DNA from: Limisalsivibrio acetivorans
GTDB lineage: Bacteria; Chrysiogenota; Deferribacteres; Deferribacterales; Geovibrionaceae
NCBI RefSeq assembly: GCF_000421105.1
Contig: NZ_ATWF01000001.1
Coordinates: 2,119,407 to 2,183,406 of the forward strand
DNA: 64,000 nt
Reading direction: 5' to 3'
In this document: positions 26,584-29,598 of the stretch, in pieces
How the letters are laid out: each line of letters begins with the position of its first letter
Position numbering within the stretch: position 1 is the stretch's first letter
Made by a program: the position numbers and the translations under genes
The notes under the pieces: generated by a model
Database searches by the model: none
Told to the model about the DNA's origin: nothing
The model's input: only the letters and a program-made list of their open reading frames with translations

Positions 26584-28650
26584 ATGCTCAAAAGAATAAT
26601 TGTGATGCTTGCGGCCGCACTGCTTCTTAACGGTGCGGCCTTTGCTGTTAAGATTGATGATATTTCCCGCTCCTTCTTCCCCGATGTGAAGAGGCTGAAC
26701 GGAGGCGAGGAACTGTGGCTTAATACCGGCATAACCCAGAAGGATTTCCGAACCGGAGTGAAATACTCCACCCACTATTCCCACTATTCTCCAAGGGCTG
26801 AGACGCTCATGGATATACGCCGTAAGAAGACCTTCGATGTATATGCCGATGTGTACGCCTTTAACAATTTCGTTAAGGCGCACAACCTCTATAAGGAGCT
26901 GACCTCTAAACTGGATAACAAGAAGACCCAGGAGATCTCCTTCGGCGACCGGGGCGTGTTTACCTATGTTCCAAAATCAAGCTACATAAACGATGCGGAT
27001 TTCACCATTGTATTCATGAACAAGATCTTTGTAGCGGAAATAAAGGCGGATGACGGCTTTGCACTGATGGATGTTGCCGCCCATGTGAACATGAATATGC
27101 AGAACTTTATCCTTGCAAATCTGAAGATGTTTCTGGTGAAGAACCTTACTTTGGCAGTCTCTGCGGATGGCTACGAGGAGATTATCCACAATTTCACTTT
27201 CACCGATGACAGTCCGGCGGAGGTAACGGTCTCCGGACAGGTTTTTGGTGAGGGTACTGAACCTGTGGCCGGAACGGAGATAACTATCCTGGAAACAGGG
27301 GATTCCGTGCTTACGGATATTGCAGGCAAATACAGCTACACCGTTGAGATCGAAGGCGGAGAGAAAAATCTCAGCTTTTCAAAGAATTTTTATATGGAAA
27401 AACTCCCCGGCGTGGAGTCCGCTGCACCGGTATTTAGCGGTGGAGTTTTTGATACCCGTACATCCTATTCTAAGGACAACAAGACCATCGATGCTGTCTG
27501 GAGGCTGGACCGTTACGGTGATAATCTTTTCGGCGAGGCTCTCATAGATATCTCAGGCAAGAAACGCAAGTATCCACTGAACGGAAAGGTGGAAAAGGGG
27601 CAGGTTAATATATCTCTCGACTGTCAAAGACCCGGCTCATCATTCAAATGCGAACAGACCTTTGAGGGCTTTCTGACCGATGAGTTTGTCAGTGGGACAT
27701 GGCACGGAACCGGCGGCGGGGGAACATGGCGCATGGAGCTGGATTCCTACGGAACCGAGACGGAGTACGTGTACCTTGATGAGGCGGTCTCTTCCATAGA
27801 GCGTGTCGGCCTCAGCGCAGAGGAATACAACCTTCGGCCGGGTATGCCCTATGTTGCGGCATCCGATGAGGTGCGAAACGGCTTCTTTGTAAGGCTCAAC
27901 AGGGATAAGCTGGGGCTCGGCGGCATGTTTGTTAAGGGAGCCTCCCTTGTTCTCTCCCATCTTCCGAACAGGCAGTCCGGCATGATGAGGATATACAGCT
28001 ACGACAGCATGAAGAGCCCTGCAGAGAAGGGGTATGCCCCGGGAACGATGACATACATAACACAGCTTTTCGAGAAGGATGAGCCATACAGCGTTGAAGT
28101 GGATATGACCAACTACATCCATACCCCCGGCATGGAGGGTGTTCTCATTGCGCCATTACTGCAGGGAGATGGAACGGGGTATCACCTTTTCGGCGGTTAT
28201 TCTGTGAGGCCCGAGGCGTACAGGCCCAAGCTCAAGATAGAGAGATATGTCCAAGCAGGAGGCGCCAGCCCCATAGAGCTCTTTCTGCAGAGTGGTATGG
28301 GTAAGGACGTTGTCAGCGAGAGAAATGTCATACGCAGCGATGGAAGGGCGGATATAACCATAGAGGCTGTTATAAGAAGGCCCGGCGAACGGCTTGAGAG
28401 TGTGGAGATAATCTCCGGCGGTGAACTGAAAAAGGTATGGAACACCGACCCGCTTGACATTTACCCTGCTATCGGCTTAATTAGAGGGAAGGAGCTGCTT
28501 AATAAAGCGGATGGAAGTATAGCTTGGCTCATTGAGAAGCCGGAGGAACGCCTTAGCCTTCATATCAGCTCAGATCCCGGCAAAGGAGCAAGATTCCGCA
28601 TAAAGATAGGCGGTGAATGGTATGAGGGTGATATAAAAAGGAAGGAATAG
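26584..28650 (+). CDS. Secreted protein of unknown function with a carboxypeptidase-regulatory-like domain
   Basis: A 688-residue exported protein. Residues 1-21 (LKRIIVMLAAALLLNGAAFA) are a classical signal peptide. Residues about 210-260 (VSGQVFGEGTEPVAG ... SVLTDIAGKYSYTV) form a carboxypeptidase-regulatory-like beta sandwich. The region after 410 (YLDEAVSSIERVGLS ...) resembles beta-rich surface or DNRLRE-type folds. No catalytic motif is recognised. It starts 8 bases after the aldehyde dehydrogenase stop and ends 1 base before the small selenoprotein start. Confidence 0.8.
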   Translation: MLKRIIVMLAAALLLNGAAFAVKIDDISRSFFPDVKRLNGGEELWLNTGITQKDFRTGVKYSTHYSHYSPRAETLMDIRRKKTFDVYADVYAFNNFVKAHNLYKELTSKLDNKKTQEISFGDRGVFTYVPKSSYINDADFTIVFMNKIFVAEIKADDGFALMDVAAHVNMNMQNFILANLKMFLVKNLTLAVSADGYEEIIHNFTFTDDSPAEVTVSGQVFGEGTEPVAGTEITILETGDSVLTDIAGKYSYTVEIEGGEKNLSFSKNFYMEKLPGVESAAPVFSGGVFDTRTSYSKDNKTIDAVWRLDRYGDNLFGEALIDISGKKRKYPLNGKVEKGQVNISLDCQRPGSSFKCEQTFEGFLTDEFVSGTWHGTGGGGTWRMELDSYGTETEYVYLDEAVSSIERVGLSAEEYNLRPGMPYVAASDEVRNGFFVRLNRDKLGLGGMFVKGASLVLSHLPNRQSGMMRIYSYDSMKSPAEKGYAPGTMTYITQLFEKDEPYSVEVDMTNYIHTPGMEGVLIAPLLQGDGTGYHLFGGYSVRPEAYRPKLKIERYVQAGGASPIELFLQSGMGKDVVSERNVIRSDGRADITIEAVIRRPGERLESVEIISGGELKKVWNTDPLDIYPAIGLIRGKELLNKADGSIAWLIEKPEERLSLHISSDPGKGARFRIKIGGEWYEGDIKRKE

Positions 28651-28651
28651 T

Positions 28652-28795
28652 ATGGAAGAATACATTGGACTGGTTGTCTTTATCGTATTCGTAATCCTCG
28701 TCTCCCGTATTAAGCCGGGTGCTGGCTGAGGCCCTAACAGCACAAGCTGCAGTATCGAGGATCGATACAAAAAAGATAAGAAAAAAAAGAAATAG
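28652..28795 (+). CDS. Candidate small membrane selenoprotein (in-frame UGA = Sec26)
   Basis: ATG at 28652 with GAAGGA upstream opens a frame whose first 25 residues are one membrane helix (EEYIGLVVFIVFVILVSR) ending IKPGAG. The next codon is TGA (28727-28729). Reading it as selenocysteine, the frame continues for 21 codons with a Cys six residues later (UGPNSTSC) and a Lys-rich tail, and stops at TAG 28793-28795, two bases before the kdsA ATG. A perfect 7-bp hairpin with a GGA loop lies 22 bases after the UGA, in the range of bacterial SECIS elements. Without read-through a 25-residue peptide and an unexplained 68-base gap remain. Topology suggests an inner-membrane anchor with a cytoplasmic or periplasmic redox tip. 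I do not recognise the family. Confidence 0.68.
28752..28768 (+). promoter_or_regulatory. Predicted bacterial SECIS hairpin
   Basis: GTATCGA (28752-28758), loop GGA, TCGATAC (28762-28768): a perfect stem inside the coding frame. The loop starts 30 bases after the UGA and begins with G, both matching the general rules for bacterial SECIS elements (apical loop roughly 16-37 bases downstream, G near the start of the loop). No T-run follows at once, so it is not a terminator. Confidence 0.62.
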
Positions 28796-28797
28796 AT

Positions 28798-29598
28798 ATG
28801 AATGAATTATACAGAAAGCTTACTCAGGCTCCCTTCGTTATAGCGGGACCCTGTGTTTTAGAGGATGCGGATACCGCCATGCGTATCTGCGCAGATATGA
28901 AAGAAGCGTGCGAAAAGGCTGGCTTTAGCTATGTTTTCAAAGCCAGCTTCGACAAGGCCAACCGTACATCTCTGTCATCATACAGAGGCCCCGGCATGGA
29001 AGAGGGGCTTAGGATGCTGGAAGAGATAGGCCGTGTGCAGGGTGTGCCCCTGCTTACAGATATCCACGAGCCAAGCCAGGCCGGACCCGCAGGCGAAGTT
29101 GCGGATATACTTCAGATACCTGCATTTCTTTGCAGGCAGACGGATCTGCTAACCTCTGCCGCAAAAACAGACAGGATAATCAACATAAAGAAGGCGCAGT
29201 TTCTCTCCGGCGGCGATATGGTTCACCCCCTCACAAAGGTACGGGAGTCTGGTAACCATAAGGTAATGCTCACCGAAAGAGGAACGATGTTCGGCTATAA
29301 CAACCTCGTCGTGGATTACAGGAACGTCATTGATATGATGGAGATGGATGTGCCTGTCATTATGGACGCTACCCACTCCGTACAGCGACCAGGCGGGCTT
29401 GGCGGAAAGAGCGGGGGCGACGGCAGGCTTGCACCAAGGATGGCTTACGCAGCTGCGGCGGTGGGTGTAAAAGCGTTCTTTATCGAGACCCACCCGGACC
29501 CCGATTCTGCAAAATCGGACGGACCGAATATGATCCCCCTTGGCGACATGCCGGATTTCCTTAAAAAACTTATGCAGTTCATCGCTGTAACAAAATAG
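28798..29598 (+). CDS. kdsA: 3-deoxy-8-phosphooctulonate (KDO-8-P) synthase
   Basis: A 266-residue KDO-8-phosphate synthase. It condenses phosphoenolpyruvate with arabinose-5-phosphate for the LPS inner core, in the cytoplasm. VIAGPCVLED, the KASFDKANRTS substrate loop, TDIHEP, IPAFLCRQTDLL, KKAQFLSGGDM and DATHSVQRPGG are all canonical. The start is tightly placed, 2 bases after the TAG of the selenoprotein frame. It shows this organism makes LPS. The rest of the KDO pathway is outside the window. Confidence 0.97.
   Translation: MNELYRKLTQAPFVIAGPCVLEDADTAMRICADMKEACEKAGFSYVFKASFDKANRTSLSSYRGPGMEEGLRMLEEIGRVQGVPLLTDIHEPSQAGPAGEVADILQIPAFLCRQTDLLTSAAKTDRIINIKKAQFLSGGDMVHPLTKVRESGNHKVMLTERGTMFGYNNLVVDYRNVIDMMEMDVPVIMDATHSVQRPGGLGGKSGGDGRLAPRMAYAAAAVGVKAFFIETHPDPDSAKSDGPNMIPLGDMPDFLKKLMQFIAVTK

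Follow-up and report, generated by a model that had tools for sequence, protein, structure and literature searches.

SelK and SelS of eukaryotes are small single-span membrane proteins that carry selenocysteine (Sec) near the C-terminus, on the cytosolic side. Bacterial selenoproteins that rely on SelB and a bacterial SECIS are recognised by an in-frame UGA, Sec machinery in the genome, a redox-type Sec/Cys motif and a hairpin with a G at the start of the loop, located 16-37 nt downstream. A further point of comparison is provided by small Cys-rich single-span proteins of the FeoB-associated type, which are short and consist of one transmembrane helix followed by Lys/Gly and thiols. A catalogue of prokaryotic selenoproteins published in 2026 comprises 119 families or subfamilies (PMC13188914), and according to a 2025 paper on a selenoprotein predictor, all known selenoproteins seem to have Cys homologues, and selenoproteins without such homologues may be lost by this predictor (PMC12013277).

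The locus described here lies in a window of 64,000 nucleotides (the whole stretch of DNA that was analysed) from Limisalsivibrio acetivorans. Its predicted product is a small single-span protein with Sec near the C-terminus and, in the Deferribacterota branch of the family, Sec is flanked by Gly, features that it shares with SelK/SelS. Unlike SelK/SelS, it has a bacterial SECIS inside the coding sequence and a Lys-rich tail past Sec, and the Sec context in most of the family is PKLGVxTU. A likeness to SelK/SelS had been suggested in a preliminary description of this DNA; it stands as a similarity of plan and architecture, but homology is not shown and the selenoprotein has no Pfam match. The locus shares all the features of bacterial SelB-dependent selenoproteins listed above, whereas the absence of Cys homologues among those found for the present family contrasts with the published generalisation (PMC12013277). 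No significant match was obtained with Pfam or NCBIfam models, and none of the 119 catalogued families has such a size, single-span layout or U-x4-C motif (PMC13188914). The family is apparently undescribed, with the proviso that only open-access literature was consulted and an earlier report is possible.

The 47-residue gene, which is almost certainly real, occupies the interval between a gene for a secreted protein and kdsA, as the preliminary description had placed it. The features of the locus are as follows.

26584-28650, plus strand: upstream gene for a secreted protein of 688 amino acids, function unknown; its stop lies 1 nt before the selenoprotein ATG.
28640-28646, plus strand: Shine-Dalgarno-like GGAAGGA, by inspection.
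28652-28795, plus strand: putative selenoprotein coding sequence, 47 amino acids with TGA read as Sec and a TAG stop at 28793-28795; 20 Deferribacterota homologues, with purifying selection on both sides of the TGA.
28661-28711, plus strand: predicted single transmembrane helix, residues 4-20, from hydropathy and AlphaFold.
28727-28729, plus strand: predicted Sec codon TGA (U26), an invariant column in 21/21 Deferribacterota and 100/100 second-phylum loci.
28748-28750, plus strand: conserved Cys33, invariant in the Deferribacterota alignment; U-x4-C in 88/100 second-phylum loci.
28752-28768, plus strand: putative bacterial SECIS hairpin with a 7-bp stem and a GGA loop, the loop 29 nt past the TGA.
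28798-29598, plus strand: kdsA (NF003543, 9e-114; TIGR01362), starting 2 nt past the selenoprotein stop.

Reading from the ATG at 28652, which is preceded by the ribosome site, through the in-frame TGA at 28727-28729 to the TAG gives the translation MEEYIGLVVFIVFVILVSRIKPGAG-U-GPNSTSCSIEDRYKKDKKKKK. These elements were found as originally claimed, as were the single membrane helix and the stop 2 nt before kdsA. The distance from Sec to Cys had been misjudged, however: the Cys lies seven residues past U (U-x6-C) rather than six, and most relatives have U-x4-C. The flanking genes in the window provide no functional clue. Neither encodes a thioredoxin or CcdA, and the upstream protein (26584-28650) has only weak similarity to CarboxypepD_reg. 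This protein of about 690 residues is kept across the Deferribacterota, directly 5' of the selenoprotein gene or of kdsA.

A search with the read-through protein identified homologues in a further 20 genomes that belong to the same order, with E-values down to 2.5e-20 and with Denitrovibrio, Seleniivibrio and Calditerrivibrio (Deferribacterota) amongst the named genera. Each of the 20 has exactly one in-frame TGA at the same place, and none ends at the TGA with conservation lost beyond it, an outcome that would have refuted the proposal; the tail is constrained at both the protein and the RNA level. Invariant residues in the Deferribacterota alignment are G6, F10, U26, C33, S34, E36, D37, R38 and Y39. 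Three loci outside the Deferribacterota (L058-L060) have a different membrane stretch, the same U-x4-CSIEDRYK and the same hairpin, with one change in L060 (CGA to CGG), after which the stem still pairs by wobble. With a profile built from these loci, members of the family were detected in 159 of the 395 genomes from the phylum concerned, which we tentatively infer to be Desulfobacterota. All 100 loci read from this second phylum have TGA at the same column; the proteins are 40-68 amino acids long, with U-x4-C in 88 and U-x5-C in 10, and follow the consensus W..LN(R/K)W.LP(K/R)LGVxTUMSxSC, in which Pro -7 and Gly -4 are invariant. A wider profile matched 39 of 385 genomes across the domain, nearly all with TGA, although some of these are probably genomes already counted. 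When compared with each other, the profiles of the Deferribacterota and the second phylum can be aligned from end to end (hhalign probability 97.4, E 9e-12). The family spans at least two phyla. The sequence FPKFGIHLGUGANADSC of L239 looks intermediate between the two Sec contexts. In one lineage of the family (L099, L139, L159, L160, L168, L171 and L181), the gene is located directly 3' of gltX, encoding glutamyl-tRNA synthetase, and either overlaps it by up to 2 nt or is separated from it by up to 18 nt.

The source genome encodes the Sec machinery: selA (C1:1049079, 548.9 bits), the adjoining selB (C1:1050416, 274.9 bits) and, not beside selAB but elsewhere in the genome, selC for tRNA-Sec with anticodon TCA (C1:1945410, 63.6 bits), all above curated cut-offs. 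Its absence, which would have refuted the proposal, is thus ruled out. Amongst relatives that are at least 90% complete, the gene is present in 18 of 19 selA-positive genomes and in none of 19 without selA (Fisher p 1e-9, a value that overstates independence because the genomes are related). The exception, G015, has selA together with selB and lacks the gene, which counts against the proposal. In three selA-negative genomes of the source's own family (G001, G004, G007), the gene for the 690-aa protein and kdsA are about 24-27 nt apart, with neither the selenoprotein gene nor a Cys version between them. The same adjacency without the selenoprotein gene is seen in two selA-negative genomes of other families (G023, G014), and in G016, which has a selB-like match and no selA, kdsA also follows directly after a short gap. 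No other single observation argues as strongly for Sec dependence as this loss of the gene with intact flanks in selA-negative relatives.

The hairpin had been described as a perfect 7-bp stem with a GGA loop beginning 22 bases past the TGA, and exactly this is present at 28752-28768, with arms GTATCGA and TCGATAC. It is present when the stretch downstream of the TGA is folded to minimum energy (z -3.4), with an energy of -12 for the stretch and about -5.9 kcal/mol for the hairpin alone (the same sequence occurs in L175). The latter is weaker than the -7.5 of the published bacterial model that we used for scoring (PMC13188914), which counts against the Deferribacterota element; -7.5 is reached in 52 of the 100 second-phylum loci. 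Both TGA and hairpin are kept in 21/21 Deferribacterota homologues, a conservation far beyond chance. The hairpin codons (AGT ATC GAG GAT CGA TAC) are invariant there except in L028, where ATC has become GTC and the stem is preserved as a G-U pair, while codons outside the hairpin vary freely. A repeat element was ruled out because the 17-mer occurs as a single exact copy in the genome. An Rfam scan of the locus gave no match and a search of plasmids gave none; the only match in viral contigs (L061, 1305-1321) falls within an unrelated phage ORF (NPVSIEDRYSRE) and was taken as chance.

In the second phylum, a hairpin of at least this stability, -4 kcal/mol, follows the UGA at a distance of 16-24 nt in 86% of the 100 loci, compared with 6.1% of codon-shuffled controls and 7.4% of other TGAs of those loci, and the stems differ amongst lineages and compensate. 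In 38 aligned stems that share a register, 97.4% of cells pair and 64 cells are double-changed, against a shuffle mean of 17.4; when the partner is shifted by 1 to 3 columns, pairing falls to 20-43%. Since these 38 sequences were picked for a stem in that register, the 97.4% is inflated. An unselected test found a 6-bp triloop stem at the register in 33 of the 100 loci, versus 0-5 at any of 18 shifted registers. At the DNA level, the hairpin GTATCGAGGATCGATAC hardly varies between two phyla (window 28752-28768; L058-L060, L175, L176), unlike the stems of other family lineages, which change freely; horizontal transfer or a sequence preference of SelB could explain this near-invariance.

Selection at the protein level extends across the UGA. 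In the second phylum, 80% of single-nucleotide codon differences before the UGA are synonymous (neutral expectation 27%), and for the five codons that follow it the figure is 76% (expectation 18%), corresponding to dN/dS-like values of 0.09 and 0.07, respectively. The conserved Cys codon is TGC in 45 cases and TGT in 43. The Deferribacterota show the same pattern save for the hairpin codons, which are unchanged in aligned pairs. Because pairs of related sequences are not independent, these figures are descriptive ratios only.

The default reading of the codon is that TGA is an ordinary stop and the product a 25-residue membrane peptide. This is scarcely credible here, given that the tail is conserved as protein with only synonymous variation at its Cys codon, that the hairpin covaries, that no homologue read has TAA or TAG at the TGA column and that the gene is tied to selA. 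Alternatively, the RNA rather than the protein could be the functional element: a short ORF with its UGA and SECIS would respond to selenium or to the status of SelB and control the gene that lies downstream. The near-invariance of the 17-nt hairpin in the DNA of the Deferribacterota and one other clade, and the proximity of the kdsA start to the stop in the window, speak for such a role. Yet the downstream gene varies by lineage (kdsA, hemN-like, lnt-like or DsbD-like), purifying selection acts on the protein on either side of the UGA while synonymous sites are free, and Pro, Gly, Trp and the transmembrane pattern are conserved in the protein, making this reading highly improbable. The proposal of a bacterial selenoprotein is therefore supported by the Sec machinery, the invariant TGA, the constrained tail and the hairpin, and we consider it very likely, on comparative grounds and without experimental evidence of selenium incorporation, that the TGA at 28727 is decoded as Sec.

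No Cys homologue was found among the homologue matches read, which are a sample and not exhaustive. Several candidates were rejected: in L218, L220, L237 and L238 the TGA-free match runs straight on into a TGA, as it does in L239 with a shifted context, and L210 has the Arg codon CGA instead of the Sec codon and a shortened ORF. L210 (about 1560-1605), with its shortened tail, looks like a decaying copy. L240 and L241 (in G024 and G030) are a different protein, small, single-span, Cys-rich and ending KKGSCGCGASCSC; they belong to one Deferribacterota genus and resemble the FeoB-associated type. Proteins of that type differ from the present family in having CxC-rich clusters rather than one U and one C, and the similarity of L240 and L241 to the selenoprotein reaches only E ~0.02. 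They may represent an analogue that relies on Cys, alongside the selenoprotein encoded by the same genomes. Four members (L219, L223, L237, L238) retain Sec and have no Cys at the usual place (TUAVP, TUIPKS), which suggests a Sec-only subgroup. The Sec-Cys pair is not universal, since the Cys is missing in some distant members (L219, L223), a point against the mechanism proposed below.

Hydropathy is 3.0 over residues 4-18, and AlphaFold predicts a helix at residues 5-20 (pLDDT about 84) with a low-confidence tail, a model that is not informative on function. The short acidic N-terminus and the Lys-rich C-terminal tail (10 K/R) imply an N-out/C-in topology by the positive-inside rule, and Sec and Cys are therefore probably located just inside the cytoplasm, with Cys33 the probable partner of Sec in a selenenylsulfide. 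In the mechanism that we propose, the hairpin at 28752-28768 would direct SelB and tRNA-Sec to decode the UGA at 28727 as Sec. Members of the family are predicted to begin with a short N-terminus that leads into a single transmembrane helix; Sec lies a few residues beyond the membrane on the cytoplasmic side, followed by Cys 4-7 residues further on and the Lys-rich tail. On the inner side of the membrane, Sec and Cys would act as a selenenylsulfide/selenol pair, which may carry electrons between thioredoxin in the cytosol and a CcdA/DsbD-type thiol-redox partner in the membrane; both steps are inferred. Strict use of Sec would fit a need for very fast or low-potential exchange.

Clustering of neighbours at the 100 loci revealed thioredoxin, ArsR, CcdA/DsbD, FmdB and gltX as close recurrent genes. 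Thioredoxin, TlpA or CcdA genes (identified by Pfam PF00085 and PF02683) lie within 1.3 kb in 18 loci, or in 23 if ArsR (PF01022) is included, and none is found at 2-3.3 kb. CcdA/DsbD-type genes adjoin the selenoprotein gene in L059 and L060 and, within the Deferribacterota, in Calditerrivibrio (L055). However, about three-quarters of the loci have no redox-type neighbour within 1.3 kb, and in the window the gene is flanked by neither thioredoxin nor CcdA; both observations count against a redox role. The same selenoprotein might instead be a membrane-tethered binder or sensor of soft metals or metalloids (Hg, As, Se, Te) with selenolate and thiolate ligands, since ArsR-family regulators are near the gene in 9-10 of the 100 loci (at times with 5 nt between them), a small Cys-rich single-span protein of the same layout (GSCGCGASCSC, L240/L241) occurs in the same order and the Cys is absent in some members. 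Against this, thioredoxin and CcdA neighbours together are commoner than ArsR (18 versus 9-10 loci), a single Sec with a single Cys would chelate poorly and there is no CXXC or His motif, and we regard metal(loid) handling as unlikely. A redox role in the thioredoxin-CcdA system is favoured over it because of the Sec and Cys at U-x4-C spacing and the thioredoxin/CcdA neighbours; in the absence of interaction data, the inference that the protein is a membrane-anchored selenol/thiol redox partner of this system is for us about evenly balanced. That the gene encodes a selenoprotein and has some redox-type role, taken jointly, seems likely.

About 40% of the genomes sampled from one phylum, and most Deferribacterota that use Sec, carry the family, yet no model exists for it. 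Gene finders and selenoprotein predictors would miss it because it uses Sec and no Cys version has been found, which would explain why it was overlooked, and predictors that filter on Cys homologues can miss common genes. Our overall proposal of a widespread, Sec-only family of membrane selenoproteins, about 45-65 residues long, that is lost whole rather than converted to Cys, and that acts as an electron relay of the thioredoxin/CcdA system, remains tentative, with a little less than an even chance of being correct in full. If true, a selenoprotein family of wide distribution would for the first time clearly be seen to lack Cys counterparts, and predictors that need Cys homologues would miss a whole class. 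The family bears on the question of whether Sec can be irreplaceable by Cys across a whole family, a question that such a very short protein makes testable.
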